A stretch of 64,000 bases of DNA from Perkinsus olseni. Lineage: Eukaryota; Perkinsozoa; Perkinsida; Perkinsidae. This document shows positions 9,307-62,657 of the stretch, piece by piece (the first letter of the stretch is position 1; every line of letters starts with the position of its first letter). Made by a program: the position numbers and the translations under genes. Under the pieces are notes generated by a model. The model made no database searches. It was not told the DNA's origin and saw only the letters and a list, made by a program, of their open reading frames with translations. The DNA is taken from NCBI GenBank assembly GCA_013115135.1, contig JABANP010000080.1, forward strand, positions 62,001 to 126,000, read 5' to 3'.

Positions 9307-12300
9307 TCAAGGCAAGGCGCCACTCGGCTGGTAGTAGCCGCCGCCAGCTCCGCCACCTGATAGATCTGCCAACGACGTGTACCGATCCAAGTACCGCTTC
9401 TCGTCCTCGGCCGTGACCTGAAAACGTCCAGGAGATGTTGGAAAGGGTCGAGACCGATAGGCATAGACTCACGGTGAATTTCGGAGTCGCAAATGCTGAG
9501 ATTCTGTTCTTCCTCTCTGGCCGACTCGCCGCCACTTCCACCAGCTGTGAGGGCCATCTCGAGAACGTGCTGCTCCGCTTCGACGCCTCCGTAGGCGAAC
9601 TTCAGGCCAGACTTCCGTACTGACTCATCGAAGTCGGCTATGACCTGCGGATCGGCATGACCACCCCGAGGCAGACCGACACGTCTTCGCCCGCAGCAAA
9701 GCCCCATCAACAGCAAGGGGCGGTTACCTTGAAACTGTATCCCTGATCGACCAAGTACTTCTGCCGCTTCAATGCATATTCCTTCTCTGGCGTGTCCTTC
9801 GAGACAAGAGAATAAAAGTACCTAACAAAACCACTTCTCCGCTTCCTCTGCTCCCAGTGCTCTCCTGATGAACAAAGACAACACTCGCGTACGCATTGAA
9901 GCCAGCATCGTCTCGGTAAGCCTTCGGTCGAAGGATTCTTCCAAGCCTCTGAGCCTCCTGCCGTCGACTGCCGTAATGTGAGCTAATTTGTATCACCACA
10001 TTAGCATTGGGGATATCGATAGCGTTATCGCCGACCTGTGCACAACAACCGCGGTAACTCAGGCACTCTGACGTGACGCCGGTCACCAACCTGGGAGAGG
10101 TAGATACAGTTGATCTTGTCGCTGTGCTGGAAGCAGCGAATACAAGCCATTCTCTCAGCCATGCTGACACTGCCGCAAATGAAAGCCTTCTTGGTCCGCT
10201 GCGCCATCTCCTTCAGCAAGACGACATTATCGCAGAAGACGATGATCTTGTCCCCTCGAGACTCATGCAAGGCGACTAGGTACTCGCAGGCGGTCAACTT
10301 GTTAGTATTCGACGTGTACCTAAGATTCGCTCCAACCCGCGGCTCCAACCAAAACGCCTACAAGGCTCTCTTAACGTGGTAGCTGCTTGTCTCCAGGTAG
10401 GCCTTCCAGAAGAGAGGCGGCATCTCGCTCCACACCTCGATACACTGGACCTGATGAAAGGTAGGGATAGAAAGAAGACCCACAGCCACGGGTGGGCATA
10501 CTCTGGCCAAGTATCCAGCATTAACAAGTTCCTGCCAGTTCGCCTCGTACAGTTTGGGCCCGATGAGGTATTGCAGATCCTCGACGAGCTCATCCTCTCG
10601 CACCAGAGTCGCAGTGAGACCTGACGGATGCAGTCGAGATCTATTTTGCGATAATTCTATCACAAGTTGAGACTGCCCTACCCAGTTTGCAGTGAGCGCG
10701 GACCGTAGTTGCCACTGAACGGAACGTCTTAGCTGGCATAACTTGAACCTGCATCGCGACCATCACGGAGGAAGGCCGAGCGAGTGTCGCTACCTCATCC
10801 GCCACTAGTAGACCCCACTCCAGCTTAGTAACAGACTCAAACACAGCCTTGGACGCCCGGGACATCCTCTCGTACGACACCGAGAACATACTGTACCTGC
10901 ATCAGGATTGTCGCGATAGTGGTCAGCCTCGAGAGGAGCGACGAAAGCTTCAACTCGCATGCCGATAGGCATGTTTGATTCAACCGAATCTTAGGAGAAT
11001 CAGAGAACAAAGCAGACGAGGACTGTGCCACGCAAGGCAATGCCGAATTTTGGTTCCCGCCACCACAACGTACGTGCTGATGAGGATGCATGGACGATCC
11101 TCAGGAATGGGCTGCTTGTTCTCAGCCGTGAGTGTGATAACATCTTCCGGTGATATCGAACAGAAGAGCTCAAACTGCCGCTTCCACTGGTCTACCGCCA
11201 CTGCCGTTGTCGTCAGGACCTGACCAGAACAATAACCGTGCTTCGGTCTCTTCACACGCCCAGCCCACCATAGTCCTTTTCTTCATGGTAGCCGCCGCAG
11301 TGATCCCCACCAACGTCTTGCCAGCACCACAGGGCAACACAATCATACCTATGAAAAAAGCATCGTCACCATACAGACTTCCTCCAGCTCCTCCTCTCCT
11401 ACCGCTCCGAGCGCGACTGCCGCTAAACATCTTGTGGAGGGACCTCTCCTGATACGGTCGGACGACGGTAGTGGGCCTACAGCGACCACACATCTACGAC
11501 AACTCCATCTACCCGCCGCATGGTCGAGGCATGTACAGACCCTCCGCTTTAAGAGCGAGTAGGGGCGACGGTTGTCCATTTGTCGCCAGCGCGGCCGCTG
11601 GTCGATCGAAACGCGATCCTGGCTACCCCACCTGAACTGCATGTTGATGTAGTTGGAGTCATCGTCATCACGGAAGTCGTATTCCTCCAGTAAGGGTATC
11701 CGGATCTCACGATATCTGCCGAAAATACAACAATATGAATCGCTTCGCTCCGCTCAACCTACGCAGTAGCCTTCACTGTTTCAACGTCAGCCGAGTTGAT
11801 CTCGAACATGTGGACGACCTGCGGATCCGCCTTCTCCCCAGTAGAGTTGGCGGCCCCAGGGTTGACCTCTGCCGTTGTAGCTAAACACAAGATTGCCACG
11901 CCCAGGGACACGTAGCCACGGTTGCTGCTTTACCGCACCACCATCCACCAACCCTAACGCCCGCCACGTGAAGTGAAGTCCACAAAGACGGTCCGCGTTC
12001 ATTCAATGATATGAAATGAATGAAAATAATATATATAATGTAATACCATATTTTAGGGTATTACTATGAAAATGGTATAAATTAAGTCCGGTACATGGTA
12101 TAATATACCATAATTAATACCGTAACATTCTCAATGAACATAAATATATAGGACATCCTATAATGACACAATAACATAATATTACAAGAGCATTTGATTA
12201 ACGACACCGGGTTGCTAAATGGGATTGCGACATCATCACTAACAACCAGACTGTCCCTATTATCAACCATAACCGTTGGCCGCCACAGGCAGCTACTCGT

Positions 12301-19479: not shown

Positions 19480-21157
19480 CTACTTAGCCGCTGCTACTGT
19501 CGGCTGTGGTGGGGCCTTTGGGGCCTGAGGGGCTGCTGGAGCGTGGTCAAATACTGGGTTCAGCTGTTGAGTAACCTGATACGGCACTTCCAACCTGATG
19601 CCACACCACTGCTACTACCCTGACGAAGGTAGTCCTCTTCGAGAGTTCCTTCAAAGCCCTCGCCCCAACATAGGTGCAGCACGATCTAAGTCCTCCCAGT
19701 ACATCCTGTACAGTGTGGCCTACAGGGCCCCTATACGGCACCTAGATGAGGAGAGGGGCTCATCAGCTACTAAGGTCGATTGCTATGAGAATTACCTTCA
19801 CTGACTTCCCTTCGGAAGCCCGGTAGTTGGCAACACCACCAGCATACTTATTCATGGCTGTATCAGATGACATACCGTAGAACTCTTTATACCACCTCTC
19901 GCTGAAATCATGTCACAATTATAGACGAAAGAGCGTCAGTGGGTCACCTCTTTGAGGTCATGGACCAGTTGGCCACCACTTTCGTCATGACCGGCCAACA
20001 TACCTGCAAGGGTGATAACGACCGACGCCCGTTTTGCGACGGAGCACTCACCTCCAAGCATAACGAAGTCCGCACCGCCTCCGAAGGCTTTACATACATC
20101 GCCCGAACATGTACAACCACCATCGGAAATAATCCTGACCGAGTTGAGAATGGTGTGGTAGCATCGATGATACTGAGTGAGCACTACATGCCTCCTATCC
20201 CATGCGCGGCATCAGCACACTCAATAACAGCAGATAGTTGAGGGTATCCAACTCCTGAAGCGAGATACTGCAATCGGGATGATATGTCACTTCCCATACG
20301 CCCAACCCTGGTTCGAACCACATACCTGTCATTTTTCTAGTAGTGCAAACACTACCCCGGGCCGATGCCGACCTTCACAATGTCAGCGCCAGACAGCAGC
20401 AGCTCCTCACACATCTCCCCAGTCACCACATTGCCAGCCATTATCACCTACTCAGCTCTCACCCACTGATGGCTCCAAGCTCAATCTTACTTTGTCCGGG
20501 TAGTCCTTCCGCAAGGTCTTGACTACCTCCACGAAGGCCTCAGCGTATCCATTGGCCACATCAAGGCAGATGAAGTTGGCCTTCGAGATCTCCATCACCT
20601 TCAAAGGAAGGTTTCCAATATTGGAGAACAGCGGTGTTGCCTACTGATTTCAGTTTGATGAGATCATCCTTCAGTATCCCAGTAGACACCGCTACGTTAT
20701 CCAGGACCTGATCGGAATCTTACAAGGGTCAACCTCGGATACCATTGACTACATCTCTGCCAACCCTAGAGCACCAGGTACGCCATTGCTCCAGGGAGTA
20801 ATGCTTGTGGACTGCCACTAGGCATTTGAACTTGCTCAATACTTCCGCCATCGCGAAGGTGCCTGCGGGATGGGAGTGACCTTTGCTGTTGAGGCGTTGC
20901 CTAGGCTTACCCACAGTATCCATATTGGCCGCTAAGATAGGGACGCCAGTCCACGCCAAGGGGCTATGCATGAAATGGAGCTCACGTTCCAGTGTTACCT
21001 ATGATGGAGGGAGCGTATCTTTGTGTGGATCAAGCGCAAGCTTCAACCTAAGATACTCCCGAACCCCTACCTGGCTTCGCGATGAGAGAGAGCTCCTCTT
21101 CGGCCTGAACAGGACGTCCTTGAAGTCTAATTTGATGTCCTGGTCAATCCGAACCAT
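19480..21157 (-). CDS. GMPR: GMP reductase
   Basis: GMP reductase converts GMP to IMP with NADPH in purine salvage. The start at ATG 21155-21157 gives [20 protein letters not shown], the usual GMPR beginning. Later exons read [50 protein letters not shown] with [54 protein letters not shown], and a C-terminus beginning [13 protein letters not shown] that becomes Pro/Ala-rich and stops at 19480-19482. GMPR rather than IMP dehydrogenase is supported by HKHYSLEQW and by the absence of CBS domains. The catalytic loop (IGPG then SVCTTR) contains one extra base in a G run at 20354-20358, breaking the frame. It is followed by an intron at 20254-20325 that contains GGTTCGAACC. Confidence 0.9.
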
Positions 21158-22285: not shown

Positions 22286-24270
22286 ATGGCTAAATACGGG
22301 GGAAGGTCTGTCAAGACTAAGAAGCTTCCGTTCCTTCCGCCAGGATCCGCTCGCGCGTCAGTTGATACAACTTCCCTACTGACTCTTCCCGAGCCTTTCA
22401 GCACAGAAGCTCCCCCTCCTCTTCTCAGGCTTACTAGTCTCTCCCAACATCCCCACCTCCCAATCAATCGCTATCGCCCTGCATGTGACTACGATATCCT
22501 CGACTGATGCAGGGGCACTCGTGAAGCAGGTAGTTCACCGTGCCCCGGGGTATGGGAGAGAGCCCGCTCGGTCAGGTCCTCACGTCGATCTTGGCCAACC
22601 CCCTCCCCCTTACTGGCCCGGAGTTGGCTTCTATCTTTGCCATTGTCCACAAGGCGGGTCTGAGCGAGAAGGATGTTCCATTGGGGCATTTGGAAGCTTT
22701 GGCCGAACGCTCCATACGAAATGGATGCTTGCTGGGGATCGAACCTGCGTCCTTAACCAGCCTGGCCTTATCGCATGCCAAGGTGGTATTGAATCGGCGC
22801 CATGTGGTCTCTCGAGGGTGGCTGCGGGACTGCCGTACCTCCTCAGGTCCGAAGCGGCAACGCTATACCATCTGCTGTTCCCGCTGCGATAGCGACGGAG
22901 ATATCTCGGAGGGCAGTCGACCTATCGGCTTCCCAGGTCGCAGCATGCGCTTTGGCAGTACGGGAATCGGGAGAGGGAGACACCTTCAAAGCATGTAGGC
23001 CCATCGACCGCAGTCACTTTGCCATCAATAGCAAATTGTTACGTACTCTGACGTATTTACGAGAGTAATGAGATTGCGGCTTAGTGCGCATTATTATCGG
23101 GAGCCCGCTTTACCATGCTAGCGAATCGTGGTATGTTCCCTGGGCCTGCGGTTATCACATCAGTCTCTAGTAATAACGTTCCTTGCCAAGATCTCTGCTG
23201 AAGATCTCAGTATCGTGTAACGCAGGTCTGGAAACGCTGGGTCGTGAGCTGGAGTACAAGCTGGCCGAGATGGACTTCGATGGATGGTGTCAAATACTGC
23301 AGGTGAGGGACATCAGTGAAGATACCCTCTACTCGAAGATCAGGCATTCGCCCCGGGTCCAGCGGCACCGGTCAACTATGCCCAGGTGGCGAACCTGGCC
23401 TGCATTCACTTGCGTCGGGCGTACGAGGGTGATGAGGGTGGCGGGGTATCTTTTAAGCAGGCAGTGGGAGCTTGCTACTCTCTTGCAAAGCACTGGGACT
23501 TCCCGAGAGACCAGGCGATGGAACTGATGGAAAAATTGTCAAAAAGCATCCGGCAGTTCCCTGTCACGTCATTGGGCGACGCTGGCAGTGTAGCCCACTT
23601 ATGGTCAGTGATGAAGGTCAGCGATATCCCGCTCTTCCACCACTTGCTCTCTTGCATTTCCTCAACGCGGAATGGTGATATCCTTCCAGTTCAACTACGG
23701 AAGCTGGTCTTGGCCATCAGACTACAGCCGGGCCTTGACGACGATATAGTCGGTCGCTTCGTCATCTGGTGCACCGACCAGTTGGCACGGCAGTTGCCGA
23801 TGCGCTCAGTCCCAGACACGGCCAACATGCTCACCACTGCTTCAAGGCTGGCCGCGATTAGTCGGACGAAGGAATCCTATACGGCGCTAAAGTCGCTTTA
23901 CCTGCGGGCGATGGAGGCCTCGATCCCTGGGAGGGTGTACACTACTCATACAGCGTCGGCGAAGCTGTTGAACGCCGTCACGCTGTTGGGGGATGCTGAT
24001 GTTCTTGCGGACTTGCTGGCGCGGTTGGACGTTCCGCGAAGTCAAAGTCACCGAGCCTTCGGTAACCGATCGGTGCTGTTGGCGTTTGTAAGGAGCTGCT
24101 CCTCACTTGACGAGGCATATGAGGTTACCGCAAGAGACAGCGGTACATCTGGAGAGCCTGAGGAAGGATACTATGATGTTGATGATGGAAAGGAGAGGGC
24201 CAAGGACCCCTCCTGTAAGTGTGTCAGCTGTCGTGCTAAGCTGGAGGCGGCCGGCGGCGGCGAGGATTGA
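22286..24270 (+). CDS. Helical-repeat protein, HPR-type, putative organellar RNA-binding
   Basis: The gene has an N-terminal Ser/Pro/basic segment (MAKYGGRSVKTKKLPFLPPG), which could target an organelle, then long helical-repeat exons: LTGPELASIFAIVHKAGLSE, IEPASLTSLALSHAK, SASQVAACALAVRE, SFKQAVGACYSLAKHWDF and PDTANMLTTASRLAAI. The pattern is that of heptatricopeptide-like repeats. A 64-nt intron between HAK and VRSGN (about 22785-22848) and one after DGWCQILQ (about 23303) are clear from frame. The last 290 codons form one exon ending at TGA 24268-24270 with an acidic tail and CKCVSCRAK. The first exon junction is uncertain. RNA binding is inferred from the family. Confidence 0.6.
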
Positions 24271-43627: not shown

Positions 43628-44007
43628 TTTCTATTCAACAAGCAGCCAACTGAAGTCAACCCGGCTTCCGAAAGATTCTCAAGACGTGCCCTCCACCTTA
43701 AGTAATAACGAAGGCGATTGAAGGCAAAAGCCCAGTCCCTGCGGGAACAAGTCATCGGCTCAACGGCGAAGATGAACTGGATATCGATTACAAAGACGCG
43801 CGCTCTCGTCGAACATCCGCAAAGATACGTTGGTTTCTCCGGGAGACGCTTGTGTCGAGATCCCTGGGGAGCAAGCTTAGCTTAAGTTGCACAATGTCTA
43901 GGATTTGTTCATGTAGTAACCTAAGCCATCACCAGCAAGCAGTGTGTCGTCTTGGATGAAGAAAAAGGATCCGATGTTGCTCAGTTACTCGATAAGTTTT
44001 ATTCTCA
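43628..44007. promoter_or_regulatory. Upstream region of the first peroxiredoxin copy
   Basis: This 380-bp gap separates the divergent G-patch and peroxiredoxin genes. Only its last 30 bp or so (from about 43978, including CTCAGTTACTCGATAAG) and a short AAGCTTAGCTT near 43875 are shared with the upstream regions of copies 2-4. The rest is unique to copy 1 and marks the left limit of the duplicated unit. Confidence 0.5.
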
Positions 44008-44598
44008 ATGTTTGTTCAACAGAGCGCCCCCGACTTCGACTTGGTTGCTTGCATGCCCGATGATTCCTTCAAGCATGTGAAGCTCTCCGACTTCAAGGGC
44101 AAGTATGTCGTTCTCTTCTTCTGGCCCGGCGATTTCACTTTCGTCTGCGCCTCTGAGGTGATTGGCTTCCATGATAAGATGGCCGAGTTCGAAAAGCGCG
44201 GTGCCGTCGTTCTTGGATGCTCCACCGATTCAGCCGATGTCCACAAGGCCTGGAAACATACTGAGAAGAAGAATGGTGGTATTGGAACTCAGCTTTGCTA
44301 CCCCATGCTCTCTGACCACACTCAAAAGGTGTCTCGTGAGTATGATGTCCTGCTCGAGAACGATGGTGTTGCTCTTCGTGGCGTCTTCATCATCGGCAAG
44401 GACGGCACCGTCCGCTCTGAGATGAGGAATGATCTTCCTCTCGGTCGTAACGTCGATGAGGTTCTCCGACTTCTTGATAGCGTCATCGAGACCGATGAGC
44501 ACGGTGTTGTCTGCCCCATGAACTGGCATAAGGGCAAGGATACTATGGTCCCTACCACCGAGGGTGTTGCTGATTATCTCCTCAAGCATACCAACTAA
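44008..44598 (+). CDS. 2-Cys peroxiredoxin, tandem copy 1
   Basis: This thiol peroxidase reduces H2O2 and organic peroxides. The 196-residue protein is one intronless frame. Peroxidatic Cys47 sits in DFTFVCASE (most relatives have VCPTE or VCPSE), the catalytic-site Arg is Arg124 (VALRGVF), and the resolving Cys169 is in GVVCPMNW. GGIG (90-93) stands where sensitive eukaryotic enzymes have GGLG. The C-terminus ends LLKHTN without a YF motif, so a peroxidation-resistant form is plausible. No signal or transit peptide is visible, suggesting a cytosolic enzyme. The protein is identical to copy 2. Confidence 0.96.
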   Translation: MFVQQSAPDFDLVACMPDDSFKHVKLSDFKGKYVVLFFWPGDFTFVCASEVIGFHDKMAEFEKRGAVVLGCSTDSADVHKAWKHTEKKNGGIGTQLCYPMLSDHTQKVSREYDVLLENDGVALRGVFIIGKDGTVRSEMRNDLPLGRNVDEVLRLLDSVIETDEHGVVCPMNWHKGKDTMVPTTEGVADYLLKHTN

Positions 44599-45638
44599 GT
44601 TATACACTTTGGTGGATTATTTCTACTGCTTCTTCTGTTGGTGCCTTCGAGCTAAGGCATTCGCATATTGTGCGTTTCTCTTCTATTTAATCAAATCCTT
44701 GTGTGCATCTCATCAATGGAGGGGACGGTGTGGCGTGTGAGCCCGTTTCCGGGTTAACTATGTCACCTTCCTTAGGCATGAGCCGACGACGGGCTTACAC
44801 AAGCTAACCTGCACTTCCGATATTTCTTCTCAGGGCATCAAGCGTTCATCATCAGACTATCGAGTTGTTTTGCCTCATTTTTCGGACTTTGTTGATGTGG
44901 TTGCTCTCTATTGTATGCTCTCCACTGGAAATCGTGAAGCTCTTCAACCGCCGAGGTAGCAGGGTGTGGGAGATGCAGGTTGGGTAGGCCTCTACAAGAT
45001 TTCGCTATTTTCTGAGTGACGACAACTTCTACTCCTGCGGCGGTGGTCATGGGCTTACGGGGAGCAGCTACTCCGTTCTCTCACGTTGAGCGGCCGTGGC
45101 TGTTGTGGTGATTCCAGGTTGACTATGTCTCTTCGATCTGGGCGCGGGGACTACGCAAGAGTTGCAACACCAGAGGCAGTCACAGCAACCCGGGAATGCT
45201 CCTGCCACTCTCCGCTGGAGCGTCGAGCCTTCGTCGATGGTGATGTCAACAGATCTCTCCCTCTTCCTCGACGTCGTTTCGACTCGTCGTATACCGCGAG
45301 AACTCTGGTGTCTCCCCAGAGCCCGTCCCTACAGTGTAATTCCACAACAAGCCGTTGTCTTCCTCAACGACGAGCCCGTCATCTCGTGTCAATCGAGCTC
45401 CTATCGGATTTCTTCACGCGCAGACCTTCTACAATGATCACCGATCCCTCCTCATCTGGCTCGACGTGTTGGGGGAGACTGTTTGTGTGATGATCCGCGC
45501 GGAATAAGCTTAGCTTGAAGATCCACTGGTTTGCAGTTCGCTCGTGCATCAACATTCTCAATCGTTGATAAATGGATCGGACACTCGATTATTGTCGTAC
45601 ATTTCTTCTGCTCAGTTACTCGATAAGTTTTATTCTCA
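44599..45638. other. Spacer between peroxiredoxin copies 1 and 2
   Basis: It contains the shared 3' flank, a middle section partly matching the other spacers (CTGTTGTGGTGATTCCAGG near 45100; the segment from 45320 to 45600 near-identical), and extra sequence at about 44750-44840 absent from them. Open frames here are not conserved in frame between spacers, so I treat it as non-coding. Confidence 0.6.
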
Positions 45639-46229
45639 ATGTTTGTTCAACAGAGCGCCCCCGACTTCGACTTGGTTGCTTGCATGCCCGATGATTCCTT
45701 CAAGCATGTGAAGCTCTCCGACTTCAAGGGCAAGTATGTCGTTCTCTTCTTCTGGCCCGGCGATTTCACTTTCGTTTGCGCCTCTGAGGTGATTGGCTTC
45801 CATGATAAGATGGCCGAGTTCGAAAAGCGCGGTGCCGTCGTTCTTGGATGCTCCACCGATTCAGCCGATGTCCACAAGGCCTGGAAACATACTGAGAAGA
45901 AGAATGGTGGTATTGGAACTCAGCTTTGCTACCCCATGCTCTCTGACCACACTCAAAAGGTGTCTCGTGAGTATGATGTCCTGCTCGAGAACGATGGTGT
46001 TGCTCTTCGTGGCGTCTTCATCATCGGCAAGGACGGCACCGTCCGCTCTGAGATGAGGAATGATCTTCCTCTCGGTCGTAACGTCGATGAGGTTCTCCGA
46101 CTTCTTGATAGCGTCATCGAGACCGATGAGCACGGTGTTGTCTGCCCCATGAACTGGCATAAGGGCAAGGATACTATGGTCCCTACCACCGAGGGTGTTG
46201 CTGATTATCTCCTCAAGCATACCAACTAA
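45639..46229 (+). CDS. 2-Cys peroxiredoxin, tandem copy 2
   Basis: An intronless 196-residue protein identical in sequence to copy 1, with Cys47, Arg124 and Cys169 in the same places. At the DNA level it differs from copy 1 at only a handful of silent sites (for example TTTCGTTTGC for TTTCGTCTGC near 45774). The upstream 100 bp are shared with copies 3 and 4, including TTGATAAATGGATCGG and CTCAGTTACTCGATAAG. Identical proteins in tandem suggest selection for dosage or recent duplication with conversion. Confidence 0.96.
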   Translation: MFVQQSAPDFDLVACMPDDSFKHVKLSDFKGKYVVLFFWPGDFTFVCASEVIGFHDKMAEFEKRGAVVLGCSTDSADVHKAWKHTEKKNGGIGTQLCYPMLSDHTQKVSREYDVLLENDGVALRGVFIIGKDGTVRSEMRNDLPLGRNVDEVLRLLDSVIETDEHGVVCPMNWHKGKDTMVPTTEGVADYLLKHTN

Positions 46230-48548
46230 GTTATACACTTTGGTGGATTATTTCTACTGCTTCTTCTGTTGGTGCCTTCGAGCTCAGGCATTCGCATATT
46301 GTGCGTTTCTCTTCTATTTAATCGAATCCTTGTGTGCATCTCATCAATGGAGGGGACGGTGTGGCGTGTGAGGCTCGTTTCCGGGTTAACTACGTCACTG
46401 TTCTTAGGCATGTGCCAACGACAGTCTCGAGTAGTTTCGACTCATTTTTGGGATCTTGTTGATGTGGTTGCTGTCTATTGTATTTTCTCCGCAGGAACTC
46501 GTGAAGCTCTTCAACCGCCGAGGTACCAGGCTGTGGGAGATCCAGGTTGGATAGGCTTCCACAAGTTTTCGCTATTTTCTGAGTGACGACAACTTCTGCT
46601 GCTGCTGCTGCGCGGCGGTCTCACGAGAAGCACTTTCTCCGTTCTCTCTTGTTGAGCGGCGGTGGCTGTTGTGGTGATTCCAGGTTTACTATGTCTCATC
46701 GATCTGAGCACGGGGACTACGCAAGTCTTCTCGGCTTCTCTGCGGGTACAGCCGAAAGCACTGCTGTCTACTCACAGTCCCGCCCCTACAGTGCGGCGGC
46801 ACACGAGCCGTTGTCTTCCTCAACGACGAGCCCGTCATCTCGTGTCAATCGAGCTCCTATCGGATTTCTTCACGCGCAGACCTACAGTAATCGCCGATCC
46901 CTCCTCATCTGGCTCGACGTGTTGGGGGAGACTGTTTGTGTCATGATCCGCGCGGAATAAGCTTAGCTCGAAGATCCACTGGTTTGCAGTTCGCTCGTGC
47001 ATCAACATTCTCAATCGTTGATAAATGGATCGGACACTCGATTATTGTCGTACATTTCTTCTGCTCAGTTACTCGATAAGTTTTATTCTCAATGTTTGTT
47101 CAACAGAGCGCCCCCGACTTCGACTTGGTTGCTTGCATGCCCGATGATTCCTTCAAGCATGTGAAGCTCTCCGACTTCAAGGGCAAGTATGTCGTTCTCT
47201 TCTTCTGGCCCGGCGATTTCACTTTCGTCTGCGCCTCTGAGGTGATTGGCTTCCATGATAAGATGGCCGAGTTCGAAAAGCGCGGTGCCGTCGTTCTTGG
47301 ATGCTCCACCGATTCAGCCGATGTCCACAAGGCCTGGAAGCATACTGAGAAGAAGAATGGTGGTATTGGAACTCAGCTTTGCTACCCCATGCTCTCTGAC
47401 CACACTCAAAAGGTGTCTCGTGAGTATGATGTCCTGCTCGAGAACGATGGTGTTGCTCTCCGTGGCGTCTTCATCATCGGCAAGGACGGCACCGTCCGCT
47501 CTGAGATGAGGAATGATCTTCCTCTCGGTCGTAACGTCGATGAGGTTCTCCGACTTCTTGATAGCGTCATCGAGACCGATGAGCACGGTGTTGTCTGCCC
47601 CATGAACTGGCATAAGGGCAAGGATACTATGATCCCTACCACCGAGGGTGTTGCTGATTATCTCCTCAAGCATACCAACTAAGCTATACACTTTGGTGGA
47701 TTATTTTTACTGCTTCTTCTGTTGGTGCCTTCGAGCTCAGGCATTCGCATATTGTGCGTTTCTCTTCTATTTAATCGAATCCTTGTGTGCATCTCATCAA
47801 TGGAGGGGACGGTGTGGCGTGTGAGGCTCGTTTCCGGGTTAACTACGTCACTGTTCTTAGGCATGTGCCAACGACAGTCTCGAGTAGTTTCGACTCATTT
47901 TTGGGATCTTGTTGATGTGGTTGCTGTCTATTGTATGTTCTCCGCAGGAACTCGTGAAGCTCTTCAACCGCCGAGGTACCAGGCTGTGGGAGATCCAGGT
48001 TGGATAGGCTTCCACAAGTTTTCGCTATTTTCTGAGTGACGACAACTTCTGCTGCTGCTGCTGCGGCGGCGGTCTCACGAGAAGCATCCTCTCCGTTCTC
48101 TCTTGTTGAGCGGCGGTGGCTGTTGTGGTGATTCCAGGTGTACTATGTCTCATCGATCTGAGCACGGGGACTACGCAAGTCTTCTCGGCTTCTCCGCGGG
48201 TACAGCCGAAAGCACTGCTGTCTACTCACAGTCCCGCCCCTACAGTGCGGCGGCACACGAGCCGTTGTCTTCCTCAACGACGAGCCCGTCATCTCGCGTC
48301 AATCGAGCTCCTATCGGATTTCTTCACGCTTAGACCTTCTACAATGATCACCGATCCCTCCTCATCTGGCTCGACGTGTTGGGGGAGACTGTTTGTGTCA
48401 TGATCCGCGCGGAATAAGCTTAGCTTGAAGATCCACTGGTTTGCAGTTCGCTCGTGCATCAACATTCTCAATCGTTGATAAATGGATCGGACACTCGATT
48501 ATTGTCGTACATTTCTTCTGCTCAGTTACTCGATAAGTTTTATTCTCA
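46230..48548. other. Spacers of copies 2-3 and 3-4 (excluding copy 3)
   Basis: The two spacers (46230-47091 and 47683-48548) are nearly the same length and sequence. They differ by scattered substitutions and small indels, for example CTGCTGCTGCTGCGCGGCGG versus CTGCTGCTGCTGCGGCGGCG near 46600 and 48055. Frames such as that at 46583-46960 are not kept open equally in all copies. Short elements just before each gene (AAGCTTAGCT, TTGATAAATGGATCGG, CTCAGTTACTCGATAAG) are kept and are candidate promoter sequence. Confidence 0.6.
47092..47682 (+). CDS. 2-Cys peroxiredoxin, tandem copy 3
   Basis: An intronless 196-residue protein differing from copies 1 and 2 by a single residue, Ile for Val at position 181 (DTMIPTT). 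The active-site Cys47, Arg124 and Cys169 are unchanged. Silent differences such as CTCCGTGGC (for CTTCGTGGC, about 47458) are shared with copy 4, pointing to a closer relation of copies 3 and 4 over the 3' half of the gene. Confidence 0.96.
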   Translation: MFVQQSAPDFDLVACMPDDSFKHVKLSDFKGKYVVLFFWPGDFTFVCASEVIGFHDKMAEFEKRGAVVLGCSTDSADVHKAWKHTEKKNGGIGTQLCYPMLSDHTQKVSREYDVLLENDGVALRGVFIIGKDGTVRSEMRNDLPLGRNVDEVLRLLDSVIETDEHGVVCPMNWHKGKDTMIPTTEGVADYLLKHTN

Positions 48549-49139
48549 ATGTTTGTTCAACAGAGCGCCCCCGACTTCGACTTGGTTGCTTGCATGCCCG
48601 ATGATTCCTTCAAGCATGTGAAGCTCTCCGACTTCAAGGGCAAGTATGTCGTTCTCTTCTTCTGGCCCGGCGATTTCACTTTCGTCTGCGCCTCTGAGGT
48701 GATTGGCTTCCATGATAAGATGGCCGAGTTCGAAAAGCGCGGTGCCGTCGTTCTTGGATGCTCCACCGATTCAGCCGATGTCCACAAGGCCTGGAAGCAT
48801 ACTGAGAAGAAGAATGGTGGTATTGGAACTCAGCTTTGCTACCCCATGCTCTCTGACCACACTCAAAAGGTGTCTCGTGAGTATGATGTCCTGCTCGAGA
48901 ACGATGGTGTTGCTCTCCGTGGCGTCTTCATCATCGGCAAGGACGGCACCGTCCGCTCTGAGATGAGGAATGATCTTCCTCTCGGTCGTAACGTCGATGA
49001 GGTTCTCCGACTTCTTGATAGCGTCGTCGAGACCGATGAGCACGGTGTTGTCTGCCCCATGAACTGGCATAAGGGCAAGGATACTATGGTCCCTACCACC
49101 GAGGGTGTTGCTGATTATCTCCTCAAGCATACCAACTAA
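48549..49139 (+). CDS. 2-Cys peroxiredoxin, tandem copy 4
   Basis: An intronless 196-residue protein differing from copy 1 by one residue, Val for Ile at position 160 (DSVVETD). It shares silent changes with copy 3, but its 3' flank (AGCTAAGGCATTCG) matches copy 1 rather than copies 2 and 3 (AGCTCAGGC). That mosaic pattern suggests gene conversion or unequal exchange within the array. Active-site residues are intact. Confidence 0.96.
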   Translation: MFVQQSAPDFDLVACMPDDSFKHVKLSDFKGKYVVLFFWPGDFTFVCASEVIGFHDKMAEFEKRGAVVLGCSTDSADVHKAWKHTEKKNGGIGTQLCYPMLSDHTQKVSREYDVLLENDGVALRGVFIIGKDGTVRSEMRNDLPLGRNVDEVLRLLDSVVETDEHGVVCPMNWHKGKDTMVPTTEGVADYLLKHTN

Positions 49140-52480: not shown

Positions 52481-52744
52481 TTATTGCACAGAGGTCATAA
52501 TTCTCACTCAAAGACTGATCGATACTACTCATAGAAGCTCACTTGGCAGGCCGTGGCAAAGCGCTCGTCGAACGGAGAGAAGGCTTGGAAATGACGAGGC
52601 TTCTGAAGAGAAGGAGACGATCGCCTTAGAATGTCACGAGTTGTAGTGCTATGAAAATGGATACCGTCCCAGTGAAACTCTTCGAGCAGGATTCCGATTT
52701 GAGTTGTACATCTGGGGTACTGTAGGACGTTCGTGGGCAAAAGT

Positions 52745-52826
52745 CCGGCAACCCGGAATCGAACCAGGGACCATCCGATGACTATTCCACTACAGTCGGA
52801 CGCTCTACCAACTGAGCTATTGCCGG
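52745..52826 (-). tRNA. tRNA-Tyr (anticodon GTA) with a 10-nt intron
   Basis: The minus strand folds as a tRNA: acceptor CCGGCAA pairs with TTGCCGG, D-arm GCTC/GAGC with AGTTGGTA, anticodon stem TCCGA/TCGGA, and T-arm GGTTCGATTCC with a good B box. The loop reads CTGTAG, then ten extra bases (TGGAATAGTC), then A. An intron one base 3' of the anticodon is the standard place and is typical of eukaryotic tRNA-Tyr. Total length is 82 nt. Confidence 0.95.
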
Positions 52827-57603: not shown

Positions 57604-57637
57604 GACCTCGGATCCCTGAGGGGTGGCACGTACTCCA

Positions 57638-58916
57638 TCATGAGGCGTGGTGAGCAGCTACTTTCGTCGTCCGTGCGTCAGTCTTCTCACGGAGGAATGC
57701 TAAAACCTCTTCAATAGAGATCTCGCCCGAACTGTCTGCATCAATGTACTGAGAATAATGAGGCCTCTCATCAAACCCGGCTAGACCACTTCCCCCCACA
57801 GCCTGTGTACTACACTGAACGTCTGACGGAGCTCCTCAGCGTTGATGTCCCAATGGTTGAGCTGGAGGTCCCGGCGGATCGCATGGGTGAACTCGAACAT
57901 CGGAGAGCTCACCGCCACCGTCCTTATCATACCTATTCAACTGTAATCCCGTGCTCGAGCAAAGGGAGATTCTGTTGGCCAGAAGATGTCGCTTGCGGGT
58001 ATCGAACCCACGACCTTCTGATCACTACTTCTCGAATAGTTCCCTAAGCAACTGTTCCTCCGTAAGCTCTTCCTCCCTATGACCGGTGTCCAATCCCTGC
58101 TGTCGTATCTTCCGGAGGTGCTGCTGGATACCAAGCTTCACGTTCCTCCGAACCCTAGTCCAGCAAGCGTTGTACGCCTCTCGGCGGGCCCGTCTACTAC
58201 CTCATCAACTTCGACGCCTTTTTGTTCTCATCAATCGCCTTAGATTCGGAGTCGCCTTTACCGATGAACCCCACCAGCTCCTCTACTAGTACCTACCGCT
58301 GCCGTTGAACTACTGCAGAGAGCCCTGCAGTCCTACGGCTTCTGGTGCGCGGGTCGATCGGCCAGTGGAATCTAGTCTCGGCCCTGGTCGCTCGTAATGG
58401 GAGGAATCCAGCAGTGCACGGAAGACAAGTTTCGAGTCGTCGTCATTGACGGTGCGAGATGACACAAAAAGGTCCTCCCGAAGGATCTGAGAACAGTGGG
58501 ATTCGAACCAGGATTGACAGGTTCGGAATGTTGAGCTCTCAGTCGTTCCCTGCTCGACTAATGTTCTCTCTACCTGCTGGATGTCGTTAAACGTGAGTAT
58601 CCTGTAGCTCTTAGCTTCGCCTCCTCCGTCCAATGTTGGGAACTCTTGCACAAGCTTAGACCTGAACCAGCACCAACTCTCAGCTTTCCCTCGCTCCAAT
58701 GACCTCGCACCTGCGTTCCGCGTGCTTCACCAAGACGCTCTCCTCGAGAGGGCTTTTACCTAAGAGAAGGCGAAGCCCATTTCGGAAGGTGAACCGGGCC
58801 TCCGTTCTCTACGGCGCTGCTTATCGTCTCTTCGGGCGACTACCGCCTTTTATCTTCCCGCGGATCCGGAATACTCGACGGAGCTCTTCTTCAGATAATG
58901 GAATCTTCTTCGGCAT
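57638..58916 (-). CDS. EF-hand protein (calcyphosin-like architecture)
   Basis: From ATG 58914-58916 (MPKKIPLSEEELRRVFRIRG) exons chain by frame: SPLEESVLVKHAERR, KLVQEFPTLDGGGEAKSYRI, LREDLFVSSRTVNDDDSKLV, ELVGFIGKGDSESKAIDENK, NVKLGIQQHLRKIRQQGLDT, then EF-hand loop YDKDGGGELS.FEF (about 57890-57930), DLQLNHWDINAEELRQTFSV and a second loop YIDADSSGEISIEEVLAFL, stopping at 57638-57640. Both terminal loops have good Ca2+ ligands. One extra base at 57900-57905 breaks the frame between ELS and MFEF. Two introns (57972-58052 and 58487-58573) consist largely of tRNA-like sequence. Calcium sensing is likely. Partners are unknown. Confidence 0.75.
57988..58052 (-). pseudogene. tRNA-derived sequence inside an EF-hand intron
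   Basis: On the minus strand GTTGCTT pairs with AAGCGAC over 7 bp (one G-T). A sound T-arm, GTGGG-TTCGATA-CCCGC, carries a perfect B box. The D-arm and anticodon stem do not fold, and the total is only 65 nt. The first base is the first base of the intron, so the acceptor stem's GT is also the splice donor. Confidence 0.65.
58489..58568 (-). pseudogene. tRNA-derived sequence filling an EF-hand intron
   Basis: The minus strand has GAGAACA pairing perfectly with TGTTCTC at the ends, an A box TAGTCGAGCAGG and B box GGTTCGAATCC that both match the tRNA promoter consensus, and a D stem AGTCG/CGACT. Anticodon and T stems do not pair well. It occupies 80 of the 87 nt of intron 58487-58573. Confidence 0.7.
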
Positions 58917-58967
58917 AGAGTAACCGCCGCATCGTCGCCATGCAGAAAAATTACAAAAAAATGTACC

Positions 58968-59048
58968 TCGTGGGATTTGTACCTGGGACCTTCCGAGTGA
59001 CAGCGCCATTCAATATGCGCTTTCAGGGATTCCCTGGCAGAGCGACTT
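58968..59048 (-). pseudogene. Possible decayed tRNA-like sequence upstream of the EF-hand gene
   Basis: The minus strand contains GAAGGTCCCAGGTACAAATCC, a weakened T-arm and B box, preceded by a stem AGCGC/GGCGCT and followed by a run of seven T on that strand. No acceptor pairing found. It lies just before the EF-hand start codon. Confidence 0.35.
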
Positions 59049-62100: not shown

Positions 62101-62657
62101 CGGTATCAACAACCTCCTCTCCGTCACTCTCTCGTCACTCGAGTGGCACACCAATAGCCCCCGGTCCTCTTCCTCCACTGGCGCCCACCAAACGAAGTAA
62201 GCACTTCTATGACCAGCGCGATTGAATTCTCCCAGGGGTTATGTGTGTGTGTATTTCGATTTGCTGAAAAGTTGGTATCAGATATGACTACGTCTCGGAT
62301 CAGTACGGAGCTTGAGGATAAGGAGGCCCCTTCTCGACGACTTCACACGGTGCATTCAGCCAGCTCGTTGGCCCAGCCCGAACGTGCTACGTCTTCTGTC
62401 AACCGATCCATATCGTCGGCTCACTATGCCGAGAAGGAGAGCATAGAAGAGTTGGAGATGGAGCTCTTCGGTGCCACAAGCAGTAATAGTAGGTCTCGGG
62501 CTCGATTCCTGGCGAGGGCGTGGCTTCCTCAGGCGGGATGGCGGCGGGTGGAGGTCTTGGTACTCGGGGTTATAAGGTTTTCCTGGCGGAGCAGTTCGCG
62601 GATGCCTCTGCCCTAGAGCAGTTCCTAAAAGGATATAACGTACTGTCCGCCTCCTGA
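59195..62657 (+). CDS. CHAT-domain protein, apparently joined to a P-loop NTPase segment
   Basis: It starts MPGVVEGDDSAEDD with a short coiled coil (KQLEELVSSLRKQL, LQLENAQLRSAI). CHAT is a caspase-fold protease domain. The His segment reads IPIVHLSMHA (about 59840), the Cys segment LVFINACRSG (about 60045-60075), then FGVKHVVCIG, AILDAAATLFTQ and, after intron 60231-60366, EFYAALLCPTVTIRHAFDRA. After an acidic linker, an exon at about 61090-61230 reads RNRRVVAVTGPVGSGKRTLV, a Walker A motif as in STAND-type ATPases. Further exons read APEVAERFIRVVMKEIRT, SLSIERYLWSSKRVNQPILP, an acidic/Ser-rich region, and VFLAEQFADASALEQFLKG, stopping at 62655-62657. No Walker B was identified. The stop at 60986-60988 could instead end a shorter CHAT gene. 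Whether it is one gene or two needs transcripts. Confidence 0.6.
60231..60287 (+). pseudogene. tRNA-derived sequence at the 5' end of a CHAT-gene intron
   Basis: The intron begins GTAGTAT, which pairs imperfectly (about 6 of 7) with GTTTTAC at 60281-60287. Between them is a T-arm CGTGG-TTCGAAA-CCATG (60265-60281, one G-T pair) with B box GGTTCGAAACC. The D and anticodon arms are not recognisable. As in the EF-hand gene, the acceptor-stem 5' end coincides with the splice donor. Confidence 0.5.

Follow-up and report, generated by a model that had tools for sequence, protein, structure and literature searches.

The EF-hand gene of the window

The window, that is, the whole 64,000-nt stretch of Perkinsus olseni DNA analysed here (contig JABANP010000080.1, positions 62,001 to 126,000), carries on its minus strand part of an EF-hand gene with eight introns. 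The gene structure follows from spliced alignments (introns allowed) of P0001 (FOZ62_013969) and P0002, two partial P. olseni gene products from deposited gene models, which are identical to the window gene at 202 of 206 and 112 of 113 residues, respectively. A search of 5.8 billion proteins with the EF-hand protein gave only these two relatives at E<=0.001. No relative outside P. olseni was found, a query with P0001 matched only itself at E<=10, and no paralogue was found in the genome (61.5 Mb, 968 contigs). The gene and the elements of its third intron are as follows.

57616..58812, minus strand: part of the EF-hand gene, eight introns (P0001 and P0002 alignments)
58760-58812, 58662-58710, 58487-58573, 58293-58336, minus strand: introns 1-4 as listed (P0001 or P0002)
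58155-58200, 57933-58028, 57749-57813, 57616-57661, minus strand: introns 5-8 as listed (P0001 or P0002)
58487..58573, minus strand: 87-nt GT-AG intron, phase 0 (spliced alignment of P0001)
58562..58568, minus strand: acceptor-like 5' arm GAGAACA (sequence)
58550..58560, minus strand: A box TAGTCGAGCAG (sequence)
58542..58558, minus strand: D-arm-like hairpin GTCG-loop-CGAC (sequence; loop numbering by eye)
58499..58509, minus strand: B box / T loop GGTTCGAATCC (sequence)
58489..58495, minus strand: acceptor-like 3' arm TGTTCTC, the adjoining AG being the 3' splice site (sequence)

The third intron reads GTAGAGAGAACA...TGTTCTCAG on the minus strand, so the GT-AG stretch described in the earlier note is present at 58487-58573. 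That note had argued that the reading frame requires its removal. This is wrong, because 87 nt is a multiple of three and the 29 codons contain no stop in the frame of the gene, and translation of the unspliced stretch simply reads through as FNDIQQ-VERTLVEQGTTESSTFRTCQSWFESHCSQ-ILREDL. Splicing of exactly this interval is nevertheless backed by P0001, following its deposited gene model. Judged by the deposited proteins only, 58487-58573 qualifies as a spliceosomal intron, i.e., a GT-AG stretch that is removed. P0001, P0002 and P0014 each need one frame offset against the window (in the EF-hand and XPB genes), which points to indels of single bases in the assembly or between strains. Elsewhere in the window, at 43996-49136, lie four tandem, near-identical open frames of 200 codons, each devoid of introns, which by eye look like peroxiredoxin.

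tRNA likeness of the third intron

The tRNA-like unit described in the earlier note was borne out, with its 7-bp acceptor stem (7 of 7 positions paired), A box and B box, and a D arm (stem GTCG/CGAC, 4 of 4 paired) can be added. The unit falls short of a full cloverleaf, since the T stem is paired at 2 of 5 positions and there is no Rfam match. When numbered by eye, A14, G15, G18, G19 and A21 can be placed in the D loop. One additional base precedes the A box, and the anticodon stem, read by eye like the T stem, pairs at about 3 of 5 positions. The discriminator position is an A, which together with the next G makes the 3' splice site. The covariance search proposed in the earlier note gave no tRNA match (RF00005) at 58400-58660 even at E<=10, and ARAGORN called no tRNA at 58487-58573. 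A canonical tRNA gene can thus be rejected, there being no match above the RF00005 gathering score and the T and anticodon stems being incompletely paired. The fold energy of the intron is unremarkable (z -1.3) and lends no support to a strong RNA structure.

Local alignment of the intron to 31 representative tRNAs of this genome gave a best score of 38 (tRNA-Gln), which was reached in none of 1000 dinucleotide shuffles (highest 37), whereas 19 ordinary introns treated in the same way scored between 16.5 and 28. It is the 3' half that carries the signal; the 62 nt at the 5' end, taken by themselves, score 22, a value matched or exceeded in 174 of 1000 shuffles. An A box arises in 69 of 5000 shuffles. 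When the 5' part was shuffled 20000 times with the 3' half held fixed, the acceptor complement appeared 349 times and a canonical D arm 252 times, and the two together in register never appeared (0 of 20000), under a D-arm rule that was set after the sequence had been inspected. The intron is likely a near-complete, decayed tRNA-like unit, with its 5' half resting on such post hoc tests.

A tRNA 3'-end-like module recurs across the genome

A module of about 36 nt recurs throughout the P. olseni genome, and the window intron is one of many cases. The module consists of variable loop, T loop, acceptor 3' strand, C72-A73 and a T-run, and is typified by the variable loop AAGGTC and the T loop GGTTCGANNCC. 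With up to two mismatches, GGTTCGAATCCCACTG occurs at 620 places in the genome (37 for the reversed control) and the 19-mer GGTCCCGGGTTCGAATCCC at 590 (0 for its reversal), while GGTCNCNGGTTCGANNCC occurs exactly at 843 (1 for the control); all three counts take in true tRNA genes. From a sample of 88 non-redundant B-box sites, ARAGORN called 23 tRNAs, leaving 65 non-tRNA copies. In these the module is sharply bounded, extending from -9 to +26 relative to the B box. The sharp edges recur in sets unselected on those positions, where the B box is preceded by A/G-A-G-G-T-C-C/G-C and followed by A/G, C/G, some six weakly conserved positions, C, A and the T-run. Conservation is strongly uneven between positions, and the distances match those of a tRNA gene between position 43 and a point past 73 (our numbering).

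A matrix was built from 61 copies lying outside 104 kb (the window plus four 10-kb stretches), which were then scanned. Eight sites, including one tRNA gene, reached at least 14 bits, where first-order shuffles gave 0.15. Scaling up the seven non-tRNA sites gives the rough figure of some 4000 copies in the genome. The copies and related features in the window are as follows.

58957..58992, minus strand: module copy, 36.7 bits (module matrix)
57933..58028, minus strand: 96-nt EF-hand intron with module (spliced alignment of P0002)
57982..58017, minus strand: module within this EF-hand intron, 30.6 bits (module matrix)
22719..22754, minus strand: module copy, 20.8 bits (module matrix)
62483..62532, plus strand: putative 50-nt intron with module, without protein backing (module matrix)
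62490..62525, plus strand: module within this putative intron, 18.7 bits (module matrix)
20301..20336, plus strand: module copy, 14.6 bits (module matrix)
58483..58518, minus strand: stretch of the third EF-hand intron and its border fitting the module weakly, 12.7 bits (module matrix)
52744-52826 (52743-52826 in ARAGORN): only tRNA of the window

The second module-bearing intron of the EF-hand gene (57933-58028) carries AAGGTCGTGGGTTCGATACCCGCAAGCGACAT, a tRNA 3' part. The tRNA at 52743-52826 was called Thr(TGT) by ARAGORN at default settings, and tRNA-Tyr with a 10-nt intron when introns were allowed.

The usual module copy is a tRNA 3'-end piece without the 5' half. An upstream acceptor complement of at least 6 bp was present in 6 of the 65 copies (3.9 in shuffled pairings), i.e., not enriched, whereas 14 of the 23 tRNA genes reached 6 bp in the same test; a full cloverleaf is thereby ruled out as a rule for the module set. 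The outer T-stem pairs were likewise no more frequent than shuffling of the pairings would give (66 of 111, p 0.90; 76 of 195, p 0.89). The window copy, the only one of the 65 with a 7-bp complement (0.165 in shuffled pairings), stands apart by its acceptor 5' strand and D arm, and is the most tRNA-like case seen among the module introns. That it has nothing to do with the module set and resembles a tRNA by chance we consider quite unlikely. Such a coincidence would fit the missing Rfam match, the low matrix score, the lack of both AAGGTC and a T-run, and the unremarkable fold energy, and a single 7-bp match among 65 copies is not very surprising. It sits poorly with the alignment score and the in-register acceptor complement and D arm, neither of which was reproduced by shuffling, and with the presence of a clear module intron in the same gene.

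Module copies as introns

Twenty joined products, all in sense, were picked by eye from the most intron-like copies, and homology crosses the splice in nine of them (Pfam 8, PRPP synthetase 1). Among the first ten, a Pfam domain spans the splice in four: HATPase_c (loci L036 and L054), kinase (L045, whose 30.9 bits lie just below the Pfam cut-off of 31.7) and ammonium transporter (L074). Four of the second ten behave likewise, with a zinc ribbon (L129), an ammonium transporter (L134), an RRM (L144) and a chromodomain (L167). The product of L051 aligns over its splice to PRPP synthetases of known structure, ungapped where shown. At L141, L151 and L164 the family matches stop at or before the splice or at most two residues past it, and L034, L044, L051, L070, L072, L076, L137, L138 and L154 gave no Pfam match. 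Together with the two in the EF-hand gene, the nine homology-backed introns show one sequence shared by many introns within a single genome, which is a mark of introners. Thirteen module introns that were measured are 39-66 nt long, so the module of about 36 nt fills most of each. As for the repeats that transposons leave, a crude test for target-site duplications on these 13 showed the intron start and the start of the next exon to agree over 0-3 nt, and acceptor-like inverted ends are not enriched among the 65 copies.

A strict donor-acceptor pair surrounds the module in 23 of 60 copies with enough flank when read in sense, in 9 of 60 in antisense, and at 376 of 2000 random places; requiring an open stretch of 60 nt or more on each side reduces the numbers to 18, 7 and 263. 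The excess of sense over antisense is significant (p 0.002), and antisense is no different from random. In a second, overlapping set, drawn from the 590 places, the figures were 19 of 53 and 14 of 53 (p 0.10). Over half of the copies have no strict splice pair in either set, and the intron role is therefore shown for a part only. Donors of the form GTRNG cluster at -20 to -16, with 11 against 2.2 expected among the 65 copies and 11 against 1.8 expected among the 53 of the second set.

Alternatively, the module could be a selected intronic or DNA signal (a branch point, a splicing-factor site or a TFIIIC B-box site) that only resembles a tRNA 3' end. Its strong and uneven conservation and the unkept T stem agree with such a signal, as does the core, which hardly varies within ten paralogue groups; since the core had served to find these loci, we do not claim that it is under purifying selection. 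The comparison set of 21 introns backed by P. olseni proteins (13 in the XPB gene, 8 in the EF-hand gene) speaks against it. GGTTCRA is absent from 19 of the 21 (all 13 in XPB, 6 of 8 in EF-hand) and is thus no general splice signal, and even GGTTC is absent from all 13 XPB introns. Two further EF-hand introns contain GGTTC alone and could be worn module copies. Moreover, the spacing to C-A and the T-run is that of a tRNA gene, and many copies lie outside evident introns. Overall, a selected signal seems unlikely to us.

The exon after the intron starts with GT (AG^GT) in 14 of 19 ordinary protein-backed introns and in 3 of 13 module introns. The ordinary introns lie at 9418-11762 and 57616-58812 of the window, both on the minus strand, and the AG^GT arrangement might reflect a longer 3' splice site or be a trace of some earlier process of insertion.

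Donor register and candidate source tRNAs

GTAAG occurs 2-14 nt before GGTCNCNGGTTCGA at 63 places in the genome, and its reverse complement CTTAC at 20. Because 16 of these 20 share the tRNA-like arm CTTACACGC, the control is loaded with tRNA genes, which we take to be tRNA-Val. Forty of the 63 GTAAG copies were retrieved, among which ARAGORN called one tRNA, and 37 non-redundant copies were analysed. The donor stands at -17 in 18 of these 37, out of 13 possible offsets, and -17 corresponds to tRNA position 35. Genes for tRNA-Thr read AGTAAGC or CGTAAGC at this place, so a consensus donor can occur within an anticodon loop.

A straight copy of tRNA-Thr was rejected, its T arms (GGTCGTC, GGTCGGC) differing from the GGTCCCN of the module. 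Behind an A-box core, GGTCCC occurs at 51 places; 27 were readable, 14 of them tRNA-Tyr, and the remaining 13 look like chance or module copies. A straight copy of tRNA-Tyr, the tRNA seen with GGTCCCTGG, was likewise rejected as the source, and no single tRNA matching the whole module was found among those compared. Tandem arrays of tRNA genes were seen on contigs C778, C179, C281, C616, C14 and C172 (G000), with repeats of about 165-190 nt, and of about 1.2 kb on C172.

Gain or loss of module introns

The match of the 60-residue L134 product to its own gene is split (residues 1-32 and 29-60), whereas its match to each of three paralogues is a single ungapped piece (56, 54 and 51 codons, 65-69% identical), so the three ammonium-transporter (Amt) paralogues have no intron at this site. 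The module intron of L074 lies about 600 bases before L134 on the same contig and strand, and by their domain both appear to belong to one ammonium-transporter gene. Both PRPP synthetase genes keep their module intron. For the L134 site, the four Amt paralogues, compared without an outgroup, suggest that gain is simpler than loss. The intron gain put forward in the earlier note is thus suggested by one gene family, with which loss is also compatible.

The empty site in three paralogues also bears on the idea that tRNA fragments or pseudogenes fell into pre-existing introns. This would account for sense or antisense hosts without any role in splicing, and tRNA genes are many here and stand in arrays. 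Introns of 39-66 nt leave little room for an older intron around the module, and neither the empty site nor the fixed donor register (18 of 37 at -17) would be expected; we hold this origin to be very unlikely.

Origin of the module introns and relation to known systems

Our assessment is that sequence derived from tRNA 3' ends has probably become spliceosomal introns repeatedly in P. olseni, the window intron being a member of this set. A piece inserted in sense would place a pyrimidine run near an AG, and a subset of pieces would also bring a GTAAG donor at the anticodon-loop place (tRNA position 35), such that the spliceosome could remove the inserted piece and the protein would be kept. 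The T-run after C72-A73 resembles a Pol III terminator. We infer that the pieces were inserted, that they stem from the end of a tRNA gene or from a pre-tRNA, and which bases of the module would act in splicing. The suggestion that tRNA-derived sequence can supply an intron is strengthened by the many relatives of the window intron, with the amendment that the usual relative is a 3'-end module of about 36 nt and no whole tRNA.

A bolder version, which we regard as possible though doubtful, is that in P. olseni the 3' part of an unprocessed tRNA transcript, running from the anticodon loop to the U-run, already constitutes an intron, and that copying such parts into genes produced hundreds or more new introns. 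GUAAG at the anticodon loop would then serve as the donor and the U-run as the pyrimidine tract, and the window intron would be a rare near-full-length case. If true, a cellular RNA instead of a transposon would be the source of introns.

The origin of new introns is an old question, and the best-documented bulk source is the transposon-like introners. Introns that share a tRNA gene end in donor register would provide a concrete second source, in an alveolate with many short introns. As with introners, one repeat makes up the greater part of numerous short introns, at apparently new sites; the module set differs in that its introns share the 3' end of a tRNA, while nearly half of the remainder varies. 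In part of the introner families, according to the portions of the reports available, terminal inverted repeats (TIRs) and/or target-site duplications (TSDs) of DNA transposons are found (Gozashti et al. 2022, PMC9860276), and some of the non-canonical introns of Amoebophrya are marked by inverted and direct repeats (PMC7789003). The words "tRNA", "SINE" and "Perkinsus" are absent from the available main text of the introner survey, and no passage on an RNA route for introners was found in that text (PMC9860276). Judged by titles and abstract openings of the papers listed, searches of the open literature yielded no tRNA-derived introns, and those on Perkinsus introns and genomes nothing on the subject.

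Resemblance to tRNA-derived SINEs and tRNA pseudogenes lies in the tRNA-like sequence, the B box and the many copies. In a SINE, the A and B boxes are joined to a body unrelated to tRNA and to a tail. The module, unlike these, extends to the T-run from a point past the anticodon stem or inside the anticodon loop. A tRNA-derived SINE was rejected on the grounds that conservation sets in at -9, or at GTAAG, and does not go beyond +26, the A box having been examined in the window copy only. The GTAAG subset is also similar to tRNA 3' halves and 3' fragments in running from the anticodon loop to the 3' end. Those are RNAs, whereas the module is genomic, has a T-run in place of CCA and serves as an intron.

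At L075 and L113, exon and intron start are 93.5% identical through the last base of the module's TCC and unrelated beyond it, as if the breakpoint lay inside the module. In antisense, the T arm encodes the peptide GFEPGT(S/F)R in open frames (L046, L058 and others), a trap for gene prediction. For annotators, tRNA-like matches and antisense frames such as GFEPGT often mark module pieces in this genome.
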